Shown in pieces: positions 32,658 to 38,501 of a stretch of DNA of 64,000 nt. The DNA lies in the NCBI RefSeq assembly GCF_011046535.1, contig NZ_CP049257.1:558001-622000 (forward strand), written 5' to 3'. Made by a program: the position numbers and the translations under genes. Within the stretch, counting starts at the first letter, position 1. The number at the start of each line of letters is the position of its first letter. The DNA is from Nocardioides anomalus (lineage in GTDB: Bacteria > Actinomycetota > Actinomycetes > Propionibacteriales > Nocardioidaceae). The notes beneath the pieces were generated by a model. That model made no database searches. It saw only the letters and a list, made by a program, of their open reading frames with translations, and was not told where the DNA came from.

Positions 32658-32678
32658 GTGCAACGGAGGGGGAGGTCC

Positions 32679-33032
32679 CGCCGCCGACCGCCGCCGTCCG
32701 CGCCGCCCGCCGCGGATCACGCGCCGCCGCCCGCCCCCAACCGCCGCCGATCGCGCGCCGCCGCCGCCCGCCGCCGCCCGCCGCCGATCGCGCTCCGCCG
32801 CCGCCCGCCGCCCGCCGCCGCCCGCCGCCGCCCGCCGCCGCCCGCCGCCGCCGACCGTGCGCCGCCGCCCGCCACCTGTCGCCGCCCGCACCCAGCCGCC
32901 GCTGACCGCCGCCGCCCGCCGCCGCCCGCACCCAACCGCCGCCGATCACGCGCCGCCGCCTGCACCCAACCGCCGCCGCCCGCCGCGCCCGCCGCCGATC
33001 GCCGCCGCCCGCCGCCGCCCGCCGCCGCCCGG
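32679..33032. repeat. CCG/CGCC low-complexity tract, about 350 bp
   Basis: This gene-free stretch is built almost only of CCGCCG and CCGCCCGCC units interrupted by recurring words such as AACCGCCGCCGATC and GATCACGCGCCGCCGCC. All frames stay open for long distances, but translations are only Pro/Arg/Ala or Gly/Arg repeats without sequence variation typical of genes. The minus strand is a dense series of GG and GGG runs that could form quadruplexes. It separates the LLM operon from the Tad operon. Confidence 0.8.
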
Positions 33033-33197
33033 CAGCTGCGGCCGCCCGCCGTCGCTTGGCTCAAGGGGACCGCCGGCGCCGAGACCGCTGCGGCCGCCGC
33101 GCGCGACGCGGCCGGGGTGCCCGCCTCATCCGTGCCCTCGCGTCACACCCGTCCCGAGTTCTCCACAATCCGGAAGTTCCCTCTTCCCCTGCCGACA

Positions 33198-33256: not shown

Positions 33257-34522
33257 ATGACGATGACGCACGCCGCGGCACCAGCCCGCGACGAGCTGCT
33301 CGAACGGCTCGACGCCACGGTCCGCGAGGCCGTGCGCCGCGAGGGCGTCGACCCGCAGGCCGAGGCTGCCGTGGTGCGCCGCATCGCCGAGGGAGTGGTC
33401 CGCGACCACGACGAGCGCAGCCTGACCGGCGTGGTCTCGCCGGTGGCCGACGCCCAGGCGGTGGTGGGCGAGCTGGTGGCGCGGGTGAGCGGGTTCGGGC
33501 CGCTGCAGCCCTACCTCGACGACCCGGCGGTCGAGGAGGTCTGGATCAACGACCCGAGCCGGGTGTTCGTGGCGCGCGGGGGCCGCCACGAGCTGACCAA
33601 CCTGGTCCTCACCCGCGGCCAGGTGCAGGAGCTGGTCGAGCGGATGCTCAAGAGCTCGGGTCGCCGCATCGACCTGAGCCAGCCGTTCGTGGACGCGATG
33701 CTGCCCGAGGGCCACCGGCTGCACGTCGTCCTCGAGGGCATCAGCCGCGGCTTCAGTGCCGTGAACATCCGCAAGTTCACCGTCCGCGCCCACCGGCTCC
33801 ACGACCTGGTCGAGCTGGGGAGCCTCAGCCCGCGCGCGGCGACGTTCCTCGACGCCAGCGTCCGCGCGGGACTCAACATCCTGATCGCGGGAGGGACCCA
33901 GGCGGGCAAGACGACGATGCTCAACTGCCTGGCCGCTGCGGTGCCGGGCGGCGAGCGCATCGTGAGCGCGGAGGAGGTCTACGAGCTCCGCTTCAACCAT
34001 CCGGACTGGGTCGCGCTGCAGACCCGGCAGCAGGGGCTCGAAGGCACAGGTGAGGTGCGGCTGCGCGACCTGGTCAAGGAGTCGCTGCGCATGCGGCCGT
34101 CCCGGGTCATCGTGGGCGAGGTGCGGGCGGAGGAGTGCCTCGACCTGCTGCTGGCGCTCAACGCCGGGCTGCCGGGGATGTGCACGATCCACGCCAACTC
34201 GGCGCGCGAGGCGTTGGTCAAGGCGTGCACGCTGCCGCTGCTGGCCGGCGAGAACATCTCGGCGCGCTTCGTGGTGCCGACGGTCGCCTCGAGCGTGGAC
34301 CTGGTCGTGCACCTCGGGATCGACGAGCACGGCGTACGCCGGGTCAACGAGATCGTCGGCGTACCCGGCCGCGTGGAGAACGACGTCATCGAGACCGAGC
34401 CGGTGTTCGTGCGGCACGGGACCGAGCTGCGGCGCACGGGCGGGCTGCCGCCCAAGCTCGAGCAGTACGAATGCCGCGGCATCGACGTGCACGGGATCCT
34501 CAGCGGTCCGCTGGAGCGCTGA
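33257..34522 (+). CDS. tadA: TadA/CpaF-type secretion ATPase
   Basis: The 421-aa ATPase powers assembly of Tad (Flp) pili at the inner face of the membrane. Motifs include the N-terminal GFGPLQPYLDDPAVEEVWIN block, Walker A GGTQAGKTTM (around residue 213), the Asp box region RIVSAEEVYELRF, RMRPSRVIVGEVRAEECLDLL (Walker B) and the His box GMCTIHANSARE. The length suits CpaF without the N-terminal extension of some homologues. ATG 33257 is chosen; an in-frame ATG at 33263 is possible. Its TGA overlaps the ATG of tadB. No TadZ gene precedes it. Confidence 0.93.
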   Translation: MTMTHAAAPARDELLERLDATVREAVRREGVDPQAEAAVVRRIAEGVVRDHDERSLTGVVSPVADAQAVVGELVARVSGFGPLQPYLDDPAVEEVWINDPSRVFVARGGRHELTNLVLTRGQVQELVERMLKSSGRRIDLSQPFVDAMLPEGHRLHVVLEGISRGFSAVNIRKFTVRAHRLHDLVELGSLSPRAATFLDASVRAGLNILIAGGTQAGKTTMLNCLAAAVPGGERIVSAEEVYELRFNHPDWVALQTRQQGLEGTGEVRLRDLVKESLRMRPSRVIVGEVRAEECLDLLLALNAGLPGMCTIHANSAREALVKACTLPLLAGENISARFVVPTVASSVDLVVHLGIDEHGVRRVNEIVGVPGRVENDVIETEPVFVRHGTELRRTGGLPPKLEQYECRGIDVHGILSGPLER

Positions 34523-35379
34523 TGGGCGCGCTGGTCGGGCTCGGGGTCGGCGTGGGCCTGCTGCTGGTGTGGTCGGCGTTCTTCGTGCCGGTGCGACCGC
34601 GGCCGGCCGCGAGCGCCGAGGGGGGCCGGGCGGCCCGCCTCCTCCAGCGGGCCGGGCTGGGTGAGGTGTCGCCGACCGGGTTCCTCGTGCTGTGTGTGGT
34701 GTGCGGAGTGGTCGCGGGGTTCGTGGTCCAGGTCATCAGCCGTACGCCGCCCGTGGCGGTCGCCTTCGGGGTGATCGGTGGCTACCTGCCGGTGGCGGTG
34801 GTGGCCGGACGGGCGCGGCGGCGCCAGCGCGAGTTCGCCGAGGTGTGGCCGGAGGCGGTGGACAACCTGGCCAGCGCGGTGCGGGCCGGGCTGAGCCTGC
34901 CGGAGGCGCTGGCCGCGCTCGGGGTGCGCGGACCGGAGCCGCTGCGGCCGAGCTTCGACGCGTTCGGGCTGGACTACCAGGTGACGGGTCGCTTCGGGGA
35001 GAGCCTGGACCGGCTGAAGGAGCGGCTGGCCGACCCGGTCGGCGACCGGGTGGTCGAGGGCCTGCGGGTCGCGCGCGAGGTCGGCGGCGGCGACTTGGGC
35101 CGGCTGCTGCGCAACCTGTCCGGCTACCTCCGCGAGGACGCCCGCACGCGCGGCGAGCTCGAGTCGCGGCAGGCCTGGACGGTCAACGGCGCCCGGCTGG
35201 CCGTCGCGGCGCCGTGGCTCGTGCTGCTCTTCATGTCCTTCCAGACCGAGGTCATCCGCCGCTACGCCAGCCCGGGCGGCGCGCTGGTCCTGGCCGTCGG
35301 CGCCGGCCTCTGTCTGGTCGCCTACCGGCTCATGGTGCACATCGGCCGGCTCCCCGTCGAGCGCCGGATCCTGCGGTGA
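34522..35379 (+). CDS. tadB: TadB-type pilus assembly membrane protein
   Basis: The 285-aa protein has an N-terminal helix (residues 1-22), a second pair around 50-95, and a type II secretion F domain (WPEAVDNLASAVRAGLSLPEALAAL, then GESLDRLKERL and VAREVGGGDLGRLLRNLSGYLRED) before two C-terminal helices. Such proteins form the inner-membrane platform with TadC. The ATG overlaps the tadA stop, and the stop overlaps the GTG of tadC, so the three are tightly coupled. Confidence 0.87.
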   Translation: MGALVGLGVGVGLLLVWSAFFVPVRPRPAASAEGGRAARLLQRAGLGEVSPTGFLVLCVVCGVVAGFVVQVISRTPPVAVAFGVIGGYLPVAVVAGRARRRQREFAEVWPEAVDNLASAVRAGLSLPEALAALGVRGPEPLRPSFDAFGLDYQVTGRFGESLDRLKERLADPVGDRVVEGLRVAREVGGGDLGRLLRNLSGYLREDARTRGELESRQAWTVNGARLAVAAPWLVLLFMSFQTEVIRRYASPGGALVLAVGAGLCLVAYRLMVHIGRLPVERRILR

Positions 35380-36299
35380 CCCCCGCGACCTGGGGCGCCG
35401 CGCTCGGGGCCACGCTGGCGGCCGGTCTGCTGCTCGTCGCCACCGGGCTGGTCGCGGCCCGCCGGCCGCGGCTGGCGACCCGCGTGGCGCCGTACGTCCG
35501 CGACGTGCCGCGCCTGACCAGCCGGCCGGTGCCGACGACCAGCGCGGCCAGGGGCGTCTTCGGACCCCTGCTGGGCACCGCGGCCGACGCGGTCGAGCGG
35601 GTCCTCGGCGGCGCGACGTCCGTACGCCGCCGCCTGCAGCGCGCCGGCCTCACCGCGAGCGTCGCCGAGTTCCGCGTGCAGCAGGTCGTCTGGGGGCTGG
35701 TCGGCTTCGCGGTCGCCGCGGCGTACTCCCTCCTCAAGGCGCTCACCCACCCCGGCGGCGTGGTCGCGCCGGTCCTGCTCTGCCTCACCGCCTTCGCCGC
35801 CGGCGTCCTGCTGCGCGACCAGCACCTCACCTCCCAGGTCAAGCAGCGCGAGCGCCGGATCCTGGAGGAGTTCCCCACCGTGGCCGAGCTCCTCGCGCTC
35901 TCGGTGGCCGCGGGCGAGAGCCCGGTGTCCGCCCTGGACCGGGTCGTACGCCGCTCCGGCGGCGAGCTCAGCCGCGACCTCGCCACCGTCCTGGCCGAGG
36001 TCCGCACCGGCGAGCCCGTCGGCGCCGCCTTCGACCGGATGGCCGCCAGCACCGGCCTGCCGCTCGTCTCCCGCTTCGCCCAGGGCGTCGCGGTCGCCGT
36101 CGAGCGCGGCACCCCGCTGGCCGACGTCCTGCACGCCCAGGCCGCCGACGTCCGCGAGGCCGGGCGCCGCGAGCTCATCGAGACCGCCGCGCGCCGCGAG
36201 GTCGCGATGATGGTCCCGGTGGTGTTCCTGGTGTTGCCCGTCACGGTCCTGTTCGCCTTCTGGCCCGGCGTCGTCGGGCTCTCGCTCACGACCCCGTGA
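35376..36299 (+). CDS. tadC: TadC-type pilus assembly membrane protein
   Basis: The 307-aa protein is a second type II secretion F-domain membrane protein with an N-terminal helix (GAALGATLAAGLLLVATGLV), paired helices around residues 105-150, the F domain FPTVAELLALSVAAGESPVSALDRV with VLAEVRTGEPVGAAFDRMA, and a C-terminal helix MMVPVVFLVLPVTVLFAFWPG. It pairs with TadB under the ATPase. GTG 35376 overlaps the tadB stop (GTGA). Confidence 0.87.
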   Translation: MTPATWGAALGATLAAGLLLVATGLVAARRPRLATRVAPYVRDVPRLTSRPVPTTSAARGVFGPLLGTAADAVERVLGGATSVRRRLQRAGLTASVAEFRVQQVVWGLVGFAVAAAYSLLKALTHPGGVVAPVLLCLTAFAAGVLLRDQHLTSQVKQRERRILEEFPTVAELLALSVAAGESPVSALDRVVRRSGGELSRDLATVLAEVRTGEPVGAAFDRMAASTGLPLVSRFAQGVAVAVERGTPLADVLHAQAADVREAGRRELIETAARREVAMMVPVVFLVLPVTVLFAFWPGVVGLSLTTP

Positions 36300-36324: not shown

Positions 36325-36510
36325 ATGAACCACCTCAGGAGCAGGGTCTACCGCGCGCTCACCGCGCCGCGGGTGCGCGACGAGCGGGGTGACGTGCCGG
36401 GCTGGGTGCTCGTGACCGTCATGACCGCGGGCCTGGTGATGGCGATCTGGGGCGTGGCGCAGGGGCAGCTGACGTCGATGCTGAGCAGCGCGCTCGGCTC
36501 GGTGAAGTGA
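36325..36510 (+). CDS. Flp-like pilin, 61 aa
   Basis: The short protein has a basic leader of about 22 residues ending in DERG, then a single hydrophobic helix (WVLVTVMTAGLVMAIWGVA) and a small polar tail. A prepilin peptidase cut after the glycine of ERG-DVPGW is likely, although the usual Glu at +5 is a Trp here. Position directly after tadC marks it as the pilin candidate. AAAGGA lies 8 bases before the ATG. Its stop overlaps the GTG of the TadE gene. Confidence 0.75.
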   Translation: MNHLRSRVYRALTAPRVRDERGDVPGWVLVTVMTAGLVMAIWGVAQGQLTSMLSSALGSVK

Positions 36511-36881
36511 GCGGGCGCCGTCGCTCCGAGCGGGGTGCGGCGGTCGTCGACTTCGTCCTCGTGCTGGCGGTCCTGGTGCCGGTGGTGCTCGGGATCGCGC
36601 AGGTCGCGCTGGTCATGCACGTGCGCAACACGCTGGCCGCGGCGGCCTCGGAGGGGGCGCGGCTGGCGGCCACCCGCGACCGCGGGCCGGCGGACGGCGT
36701 CGCGCTGACCCGCAGCCAGATCGACGGAGCGGTGTCCGGGCGGTTCGCCCAGGAGGTCAGCGCGCAGCAGCAGGGCGACACCGTCGAGGTCACCGTGCAC
36801 GCATCGGTGCCGGCGCTCGGCCTCGGTGGCCCCGCGGTCGAGCTCACGGTGCACGGCCACGCGACCGAGGAGCCGCCGTGA
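36507..36881 (+). CDS. TadE-family pseudopilin
   Basis: The 124-aa protein has the short basic leader and cleavage context VSGRRRSERG-AAVVDF followed by a helix (VLVLAVLVPVVLGIAQVALVM) and an extracytoplasmic domain with SEGARLAATRD, the usual TadE layout. The +5 residue is Asp rather than Glu. The GTG overlaps the flp stop. Its own stop (TGA 36879-36881) overlaps a GTG at 36878 that would be the native start of the next pseudopilin gene if the 750-bp insert were absent. Confidence 0.85.
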   Translation: MSGRRRSERGAAVVDFVLVLAVLVPVVLGIAQVALVMHVRNTLAAAASEGARLAATRDRGPADGVALTRSQIDGAVSGRFAQEVSAQQQGDTVEVTVHASVPALGLGGPAVELTVHGHATEEPP

Positions 36882-36886
36882 GCCGC

Positions 36887-37288
36887 TCAGAGCACGGCGG
36901 CCAGCCGGTCCAGGTTGAGCACCCAGCCGCCGCGGTGCCCGTCGTCGCCGGCGTCGGGCGCGGTCTCGGCGTGCTCGAGGAGCAGGTGGGTGCCGTCGCC
37001 GTCCGGGGTGAGCGTGACGCTGACCGTGGTCTCGGGGTCGTCGTCGTGCGCCCACGCCCACGTGAAGACCAGGCGTTCGGTCGGGTCGACCTCGACGTAG
37101 GTCCCGCTCACGACGTACGAACCCATCGCGCAACGCCACGCCCCGCCGGGCCGGACGTCGAGCTCGCAGGCCACGTCGAGCGCGGGGTTGGGGCAGAACC
37201 ACTGCGCCATGAGCGCCGGTTCGGTGAAGCGCGCCCAGACCTTCTCGGGGGCGGCGGCGTAGTGGCGCTCGAGCGTGAAGTCGTGCAT
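36887..37288 (-). CDS. SRPBCC (AHSA1-type) protein paired with ArsR regulator
   Basis: The 133-aa protein begins FTLERHYAAAPEKVWARFTEPALMAQWFCP, the signature of AHSA1/START-like SRPBCC proteins, and continues with YVEVDPTERLVFTW and a C-terminal GGWVLNLDRL helix. Members often sit behind an ArsR regulator and bind or modify small hydrophobic compounds. The ATG (37286-37288) overlaps the arsR stop by one base (TGATG), so the two are coupled. It is encoded against the direction of the surrounding Tad genes. Confidence 0.85.
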   Translation of the reverse strand: MHDFTLERHYAAAPEKVWARFTEPALMAQWFCPNPALDVACELDVRPGGAWRCAMGSYVVSGTYVEVDPTERLVFTWAWAHDDDPETTVSVTLTPDGDGTHLLLEHAETAPDAGDDGHRGGWVLNLDRLAAVL

Positions 37289-37602
37289 CAGTGCTCCTCG
37301 GAGGTGAGTACGCCGTCGAGCCGGTCCAGCGCGGCGGTCCAGAACGTCCTGCGGTCGGTGAGCCAGCCGGCGAGCTCGTCGAGCGGCTCGGGGCGCAGCC
37401 GGCAGGTGACGACGCGGCCCTGCTTGCGGCGCTCGACCCAGCCGGCGTCGACCAGGACGCCGACGTGCTTGCTGACCGCGGTCAGCGACATGGCGTACGG
37501 CGCGGCCAGCTCCGACAGCGACGCCGGCCCCCGGGCGAGCCGCTCGACCAGTCCGGCGCGCGTGGGGTCGCCCAGGGCGGCACACAGGGTCGCGACGGTC
37601 AC
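37288..37602 (-). CDS. ArsR-family repressor
   Basis: The 104-aa winged-helix regulator has the ArsR core CAALGDPTRAGLVERLARGPASLSELAAPYAMSLTAVSKHVGVL and a wing with RRKQGRVVTCRL. No metal-binding CxC motif is present, as in the ArsR-SRPBCC pairs of actinobacteria. GTG 37600-37602 is preferred; an in-frame TTG at 37612-37614 falls inside the probable operator (37609-37628). It likely represses itself and the SRPBCC gene. Only 34 bp separate this start from the right edge of the inserted segment. Confidence 0.8.
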   Translation of the reverse strand: MTVATLCAALGDPTRAGLVERLARGPASLSELAAPYAMSLTAVSKHVGVLVDAGWVERRKQGRVVTCRLRPEPLDELAGWLTDRRTFWTAALDRLDGVLTSEEH

Positions 37603-38080
37603 GGAGATACTCAACCATCCGGTTCAGTGTTGGCGCAAGAGGGGTGAGCGGGGTAGTGCCCTCGTCGAGCTGACCTGGCTCGGGGTCCTGCTGCTCATCC
37701 CGATGCTGTGGATCGTGGTCACGCTCTTCCAGGCCCAGCAGGGCGCGTTCGCGGTGAGCAGCGCCGCCCGCGCCGCGGGCCGTGCCTACGTGCTCGCGCC
37801 CAGCGACGCCGAGGGCCAGCAGCGCGCCGAGGCCGCCGCGCGCGCGGCCCTGGCCGACCAGGGCGTCGACGCACCGGTGCGGGTCAGCGTCAGCTGCACG
37901 CCGTACCCCCACCAGTGCCACCAGGGCACCAGCGTCGTCACCGTCCGCGTCGCCACGCGCGTCGACCTGCCACTGCTGCCCGACGCACTCGGCGGTCGCG
38001 CGCCCAGCCTCGCGCTGGACGCCGAGCACTCCGTGCCGGTGGGGCAGTACCAGGAGGTGGACCGTGCGCCGCAGGGGTGA
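37562..38080 (+). CDS. TadE-type pseudopilin with displaced N-terminus
   Basis: From residue 32 this frame is a clear pseudopilin: leader end KRGERG, then SALVELTWLGVLLLIPMLWIVV (Glu at +5 as in class III prepilins), SSAARAAGRAYVLA, a cysteine pair (SCTPYPHQCHQ) and a beta-rich end. No start codon lies near the leader. The nearest in-frame GTG is 37562, inside the antisense arsR gene, giving a 31-residue leader; the frame is in fact open back to GTG 36878 through the whole cassette. The gene is best read as 5'-interrupted by insertion. Whether it is still translated is open. Its 3' end overlaps the next gene by 17 bp. Confidence 0.6.
   Translation: MGSPRAAHRVATVTEILNHPVQCWRKRGERGSALVELTWLGVLLLIPMLWIVVTLFQAQQGAFAVSSAARAAGRAYVLAPSDAEGQQRAEAAARAALADQGVDAPVRVSVSCTPYPHQCHQGTSVVTVRVATRVDLPLLPDALGGRAPSLALDAEHSVPVGQYQEVDRAPQG
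37609..37628. promoter_or_regulatory. Probable ArsR operator
   Basis: ACTCAACC (37609-37616) and GGTTCAGT (37621-37628) are complementary at 7 of 8 positions around ATCC. The repeat lies just upstream of the arsR GTG and within 10 bp of the right border of the insert, where autoregulation would act. Confidence 0.5.
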
Positions 38081-38501
38081 GGACGGGCAGGCGACGGTCC
38101 TCATCGTCGGCTTCGCGGTCGCGTTGGCCATGCTCATCGCGGCCGTCGTGGACGCCTCGGCTGCCTACCTCCAGCGCCAGGGCCTCGACACCCTGGCCGA
38201 CGGGGCCGCGCTGCGCGGTGCGGACCTCGGCGCGACCGGCGAGGACGTCTACCACGGCGGCGTCCCGGCCGACAGCCTCGCGCTCACCCCGGCGCAGGCC
38301 CGGGCCGCGGTCGGTGCCTACCTGCAGCAGGCCGGCGCCTACGCGAGCTACCCCGGGCTGACGTACGCCGTGCGCATCGTCGGCGACCGCGTCGAGGTCA
38401 GCCTGCACGCGCCCCTCGACCTGCCGCTCAGCGTTCCCGGCTCGCCCGAGCGTGCCACCGTCGGCGCCGAGGGCAGCGCGATCGTCGGCGTCGACGGCTG
38501 A
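38064..38501 (+). CDS. TadG/TadE-like pilus-associated membrane protein
   Basis: The 145-aa protein starts with a basic leader and Tad-like junction (RRRGEDG-QATVLIVGF), one membrane helix (VLIVGFAVALAMLIAAVVDASAAYLQ) and QGLDTLADGAALRGAD, which matches the Tad-associated N-terminal region of putative Flp pilus assembly proteins. An extracytoplasmic domain of about 95 residues follows. AGGAGGT lies 7 bases before the GTG and is the strongest ribosome site of the operon, so its translation does not depend on the disrupted upstream gene. Confidence 0.75.
   Translation: MRRRGEDGQATVLIVGFAVALAMLIAAVVDASAAYLQRQGLDTLADGAALRGADLGATGEDVYHGGVPADSLALTPAQARAAVGAYLQQAGAYASYPGLTYAVRIVGDRVEVSLHAPLDLPLSVPGSPERATVGAEGSAIVGVDG

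Follow-up and report, generated by a model that had tools for sequence, protein, structure and literature searches.

A compact pair of genes, encoding an ArsR-type repressor and an SRPBCC protein, lies antisense within the plus-strand Tad pilus operon of Nocardioides anomalus (5.12 Mb genome, single contig). We analysed a 64,000-nucleotide stretch of this genome (contig NZ_CP049257.1, positions 558,001 to 622,000), which is called the window below and to whose first base all coordinates refer. The two genes make up a known module, ArsR-COG3832 (Aha1/START), which was listed in 2009, reportedly by Makarova, Wolf and Koonin. The passages of the 2009 survey that bear on it (PMC2701414) present the ArsR and COG3832 genes as a predicted two-gene operon of non-uniform distribution; one table counts 280 and 259 occurrences, another 310 chromosomal plus 13 plasmid ones. 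The same passages treat the module as toxin-antitoxin-like, hold a role in antibiotic resistance to be more plausible and describe its ArsR as lacking metal motifs. Compared with the module described there, the locus reported here offers occupied and empty sites, a position inside a pilus operon and a candidate operator beside a pilus gene.

According to passages of PMC3338718, Rv2034 of Mycobacterium tuberculosis is an autorepressing ArsR that acts on an inverted repeat whose halves are 4 bp apart and protects the region from -30 to +3; the Rv2034-Rv2035-Rv2036 operon pairs it with a polyketide_cyc2-domain gene. The window pair resembles this operon in the ArsR gene with such a partner and in the 4-bp-spaced inverted repeat, whereas the Rv2034 operon has its own repeat (CCGTAAGT-N4-ACTTACGG) and, in those passages, no pilus-operon setting. 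For the pilus genes, passages of PMC4322843 describe the Tad/Flp clusters of Micrococcus luteus, in which TadE, TadE2 and TadF are each required for surface Flp. TadE/F minor pilins of ~150 amino acids are common to both systems, but these passages mention no internal arsR-SRPBCC (the M. luteus sequence was not checked). Because each of the three M. luteus proteins is needed, the second pseudopilin of the window operon (PP2) is probably required for pili where PP2 is produced. Our literature search found no paper combining Nocardioides, the tad operon and ArsR; as far as such searches reach, the arrangement is unpublished.

Results

Empty and occupied junctions

A search of 118 genus genomes gave a PP2 match in 111, and 109 of these loci were examined; G001 and G039, with weak matches, were left out. 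At 102 loci the tadE stop and the PP2 start overlap (82 GTGA, 20 ATGA), with fewer than 100 bases between the stop and the conserved part of PP2. The antisense arsR-SRPBCC pair occupies the junction at two loci, those of the window and of Nocardioides halotolerans DSM 19273 (G090, NZ_KE383923.1). The original prediction, made from the window sequence alone, had reported two minus-strand genes, arsR and SRPBCC, inside the plus-strand Tad operon, had interpreted the pair as an insertion at the start of the pseudopilin gene that follows tadE, and had named in advance an intact, GTGA-coupled locus without arsR as the finding that would support this. The genes are present as described, in the order tadE, SRPBCC, ArsR and then pseudopilin sequence up to 38080, and an insertion between tadE and a second pseudopilin gene is borne out by the 102 coupled, empty loci.

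Among 215 genus genomes, only the two occupied ones encode an ArsR of more than 52% identity at E 1e-20, and a single additional match (47%) passed E 1e-24 among 341 family genomes. A tree of TadE, PP2 and TadG with 30 taxa makes them sisters (support 0.999), and they are also nearest neighbours by PrfB (93%, next 90%; 211 of 215 genomes matched). One insertion in the common ancestor of the two strains is the simplest account.

The five other loci were inspected individually. The junctions of L103 and L109 are close and uncoupled. In L119 (G037) PP2 is coupled to TadE, yet 164 bases precede the conserved part; the locus gave no convincing cassette match. No TadE was found in L122 and L175 under the filter used. 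Just the last 23 TadE residues are recognisable before PP2 in L122 (G098), with another long frame upstream, and this operon looks broken or rearranged. PP2 of L175 (G088) lacks its first ~60 residues and matches from about residue 61, after another long frame, so that this Tad operon too is apparently disrupted. Cassette remnants in these five loci were rejected: DNA matches spanned 13 to 38 bases with E values of 0.002 or worse and were taken as chance.

The cassette genes

N. halotolerans keeps both cassette frames at the same place (85% identity for ArsR, 60% for SRPBCC), and the alignment sets the arsR start at GTG 37602, not at TTG 37614. As in the ArsR-COG3832 module, the two genes are adjacent and co-directional, here with an overlap of one base, and their distribution is patchy, with a close copy in 2 of 215 genus genomes. 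The ratio of non-synonymous to synonymous substitution rates (dN/dS) between the two species is 0.26 for ArsR and 0.78 for SRPBCC. SRPBCC is thus far more diverged than its partner, which perhaps reflects a change of ligand. No metal-sensor binding motif was seen by eye in the 104-residue ArsR (no search aimed at it was made). Base composition gives no contrast, the GC content being 0.70-0.76 in the cassette and 0.72-0.82 in the neighbouring tad genes. A defence-system identity was also considered and rejected. Csa3 models match ArsR (8.7e-12 and 1.2e-10), which we think stems from the common winged helix, and CRISPR genes were not looked for; SRPBCC had no match among the defence-system models.

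Borders of the cassette and the start of PP2

The end of tadE (...CCGCCGTGAG) is common to both occupied loci in the alignment. At the right border the N. halotolerans sequence is GGAGCAAGAGGTGAGGCGGGACGAGCGG, in which GGAG resembles a Shine-Dalgarno motif and precedes a GTG in frame with PP2; the database protein P0149 starts at this GTG. GTGAGGC stands at both cassette borders in N. halotolerans, which suggests a possible duplication of the stop/start sequence at insertion. Ku is encoded in both occupied genomes, so insertion by end-joining would be possible. The window has 8 bases fewer than N. halotolerans at the right border, and GTG 37644 there is not in the PP2 frame. AAG AGG at 37637-37642 falls mostly on the cassette side, which puts the insert at about 36882-37642.

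With an insert of ~760 bp, the exact excision of 750 bp, a multiple of three, that the original prediction had proposed turned out to be a coincidence. The long fusion through the cassette that it had entertained was rejected: the frame, open over 400 amino acids in the window, is interrupted by stop codons in N. halotolerans. A leader from GTG 37562, its other suggestion, is in frame, this GTG being the nearest ordinary in-frame start upstream of PP2, within arsR on the opposite strand. The predicted protein of one relative (P0228) spans that stretch, which is a gene-caller's choice and no proof of use. The statement that every operon junction is alike agrees with the flp/tadE junction, likewise a GTGA overlap, but not with the 17-base overlap of PP2 and tadG. 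Taken as a whole, the earlier interpretation is partly supported.

A palindrome upstream of arsR

The palindrome TGAACCnnnnGGTTnA lies upstream of arsR in both occupied loci, in a single copy each in the stretch compared. Its core, AACCN4GGTT, was counted in 115 bases around the arsR start of homologous loci (55 of 56 used, window and N. halotolerans not counted), with control windows from the same loci. It was present in 22 of 55 loci versus 1 of 2463 control windows. Split by neighbourhood, the figures were 14 of 28 for loci beside an SRPBCC match (controls 0/1182) and 8 of 27 for the rest (controls 1/1281). Many of these homologous loci have the palindrome at the start codon, and in some it is repeated farther upstream. 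Across the window genome the longer pattern TNAACCNNNNGGTTNA has a single location, between arsR and PP2; N. halotolerans has three locations, one at the cassette and two a short way upstream of another ArsR-like gene (G090:C2:79127-79520; L211, L212). We infer that ArsR is an autorepressor whose operator could control PP2-tadG too.

A recognisable leader was found in 119 of the best 120 of 2545 PP2 homologues. Nine of the 119 leaders are palindrome-like (VNHLVQC, MATVNHLVQC, MPTLNHLVQC), which corresponds to the translation of the plus-strand palindrome; the pattern was picked after some such leaders had been seen, and from protein sequences only. In that frame the window has ILNHPVQCWRKRGERG/SALVE, and no ordinary start codon is present at this point. 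Ten same-source contigs of equal size were noticed by eye in the lists of ArsR (best 120 of 964) and PP2 homologues (best 120 of 2545): (66489, 599125, 745542, 135610, 68244, 13510, 2948, 1567, 1408 and 1050). Equal long sizes denote one contig and carry no distance information, whereas equal short sizes would denote close neighbours, some maybe by chance, as 1301 turns up with more than one source. Palindrome-like PP2 leaders lend support to the 1050 and 1408 contigs (P0125 and P0124, respectively). Judged from protein sequence, two metagenome PP2 leaders are perhaps decayed cassettes: that of P0150 matches antisense arsR (84% over 38 residues) and that of P0129 weakly matches the antisense SRPBCC end of N. 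halotolerans (13 residues, E 1e-4). A tentative and rather doubtful extension is that PP2 begins inside the palindrome in several Nocardioides lineages (GTG AAC CAT ... = VNHLVQC). Repressor site, arsR upstream region and leader would then be one, and a mobile toxin-antitoxin-like module would control Tad pilus assembly.

The Tad operon of the window

The plus-strand genes follow the order tadA, tadB, tadC, a small Flp-like gene, tadE, PP2 and tadG, which includes the TadA ATPase, TadB/TadC, TadE and TadG in the order of a Tad/Flp pilus operon (Table 1). PP2 reads ERG/SALVELTWLGVLLL and has the features of a TadE/TadF pseudopilin, with a prepilin site G/XXXXE, a hydrophobic segment (seen by eye), ~150 amino acids and a place in a tad operon; G6 and E11 are invariant in an alignment of 26 sequences. 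It had no Pfam or NCBIfam match, and the PP2 proteins of five relatives gave none above the cut-off. Because no TadE/TadF family model matches, PP2 was filed merely as TadF-like. Directly upstream of tadA the window carries a GC-rich, CCG-type tandem array with periods of 3, 10 and 37 (32677-33055).

Table 1. Features of the Tad operon and of the cassette, in window coordinates
Feature	Position	Strand	Evidence or remark
TadA-type ATPase, operon start	33257..34522	+	T2SSE 1.7e-35
TadB-type membrane protein	34582..35379	+	T2SSF 2.5e-10
TadC-type membrane protein	35376..36299	+	T2SSF 2.7e-16 for 35340-36299; start chosen by us
Small Flp-like protein gene	36325..36510	+	Position and size only; no significant Pfam match
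TadE pseudopilin	36507..36881	+	Pfam TadE 6.6e-11; TGA stop inside the GTGA used by relatives as next start
Inserted cassette, ~760 bp	about 36882..37642		Missing from 102 coupled loci; right border uncertain by a few bases
SRPBCC/AHSA1 (COG3832-type) protein, 133 amino acids	36887..37288	-	AHSA1 1.6e-28; start overlaps arsR stop by one base
ArsR-type repressor, 104 amino acids, start GTG 37602	37288..37602	-	HTH_20 5e-10; NCBIfam HTH_metalloreg 1.5e-19; N. halotolerans alignment
Palindrome TCAACCATCCGGTTCA, candidate ArsR operator	37611..37626		Sole place in the genome with TNAACCNNNNGGTTNA
PP2, second (TadF-like) pseudopilin	37637..38080	+	Homology to empty-site relatives clear from ~37646 (alignment); nearest ordinary in-frame start upstream GTG 37562
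TadG-like protein (Tad domain)	38064..38501	+	PF13400 1.2e-7

Discussion

Empty and occupied sites, conserved cassette genes and a palindrome before arsR in both species are the observations from which our account starts. We consider it likely, taken as a whole, that an ArsR-SRPBCC module was inserted in the tadE/PP2 overlap and that repression by its ArsR reaches PP2-tadG. The compact module would have entered the 4-base stop/start overlap, antisense, in an ancestor shared with N. halotolerans, by end-joining or a similar process with a short target duplication (the GTGAGGC of the N. halotolerans borders). Such a duplication would have preserved the tadE stop and supplied PP2 with a separate start. 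The window lineage no longer has the right-hand GTG, and its PP2 would need to begin within cassette DNA. ArsR is predicted to bind the palindrome and to repress its own operon until released by a ligand, which the SRPBCC protein perhaps binds or removes. With less confidence, we propose that bound ArsR also lowers PP2-tadG expression, as a roadblock or by covering the start site, because the palindrome stands between arsR and PP2, across tad transcription, and adjoins the PP2 start. This side effect of autorepression is deduced from the position of the palindrome.

Several observations weigh against the account. The putative target duplication is merely 7 bases long, and as GTG is expected at a start codon the evidence for it rests on the four bases that follow; the chance of their agreeing is, by our own estimate, roughly 1%. 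The palindrome core is missing before 14 of the 28 ArsR loci with an adjacent SRPBCC. A backward control pattern had one forward and one reverse match in the window genome, equal to the real pattern, and none in N. halotolerans; because the control is equally frequent, the single copy in the window is no evidence when taken alone. A scan for sigma-70-type promoters over 36800-38100 found none. Finally, a weakly supported tree of PP2 only (131 sequences) united the window neither with N. halotolerans nor with all 19 putatively occupied sequences. A clade of 54 tips (support 0.41) holds 15 of the 19 and none of the 11 empty genomes included, the PP2 of the window being among the four outside it, and the putatively occupied P0123 pairs with the empty G111 at 0.924. 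A later loss of the cassette or a second insertion event is possible; the tree neither confirms nor rules out a single insertion.

The cassette might instead have inserted in the same way as a self-contained passenger, PP2-tadG being read through by tad transcription or decayed, with no link to pili. We rate this at somewhat less than an even chance; the estimate and the one given above are not exclusive, the insertion being common to both and only the last step differing. The divergence of PP2 speaks for a passenger. Among sites that differ between the two, PP2 of the window departs alone from the majority of 28 other genomes 21 times and that of N. halotolerans 6 times (p = 0.006), compared with 7 and 6 times for TadE and 5 and 4 times for TadG. 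Its mean identity to these genomes is 68.9% versus 74.7% for N. halotolerans (TadE 67.7% and 69.0%, TadG 63.3% and 63.8%). The automatic protein call for the PP2 of the window (P0126) starts only at residue 27, close to where the membrane segment ends, and the high dN/dS of SRPBCC points in the same direction. On the other hand, the dN/dS of the PP2 pair (0.32) is close to that of TadE and TadG (0.27 each), ArsR is conserved and the palindrome is retained. Loss of constraint on PP2, to which the majority count points, was not borne out by two other counts. No shift was seen in residues absent from the 28 genomes (window/N. halotolerans: PP2 5/3, TadE 6/2, TadG 6/6) or in the polarised silent/replacement counts of PP2 (window 10/17, N. 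halotolerans 4/9; Fisher p = 1.0 between branches, p = 0.60 against TadE plus TadG). On these figures PP2 evolved faster on the branch leading to the window, without loss being demonstrated.

That a transposon or phage brought in the pair as cargo and left no trace appears improbable. It would fit the short direct repeat at the N. halotolerans borders and the ArsR homologues on 525 plasmid records, all of which are below 60% identity. As the original prediction had noted, no transposase accompanies the pair: none was present among 16 neighbouring proteins scanned. Terminal inverted repeats, the other mark of an insertion sequence or transposon, were absent from the repeat pairs listed (25 of 31 for the window, 25 of 84 for N. 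halotolerans). No defined element with the same ends was found. A plasmid or phage origin was rejected, as there is no close relative among plasmid and phage records, of which just three phage records hold a distant ArsR. The ArsR matches (best 120 of 964) include a cluster at 68-95% identity, and the other full-length matches are at or below 62%. One insertion site is known for the pair, which may move as a unit. An ancestral arsR-SRPBCC between tadE and PP2, lost in most lineages, is scarcely credible: one putatively occupied sequence stands beside an empty genome in the weak tree, but the overlap is found at 102 of 109 loci across the sampled genus and the two occupied genomes sit together as a single inner pair in the three-protein tree.

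With the insertion preferred here, the ArsR-COG3832 module, whose mobility has been suspected since 2009, can be compared at chromosomal sites with and without it, and a stop/start overlap is seen to be able to accept an insertion with both genes kept. The cassette may alter pilus assembly. If it is true that ArsR controls PP2-tadG, a mobile two-gene module would have captured a pilus operon by landing within it, its operator being reused as coding sequence.
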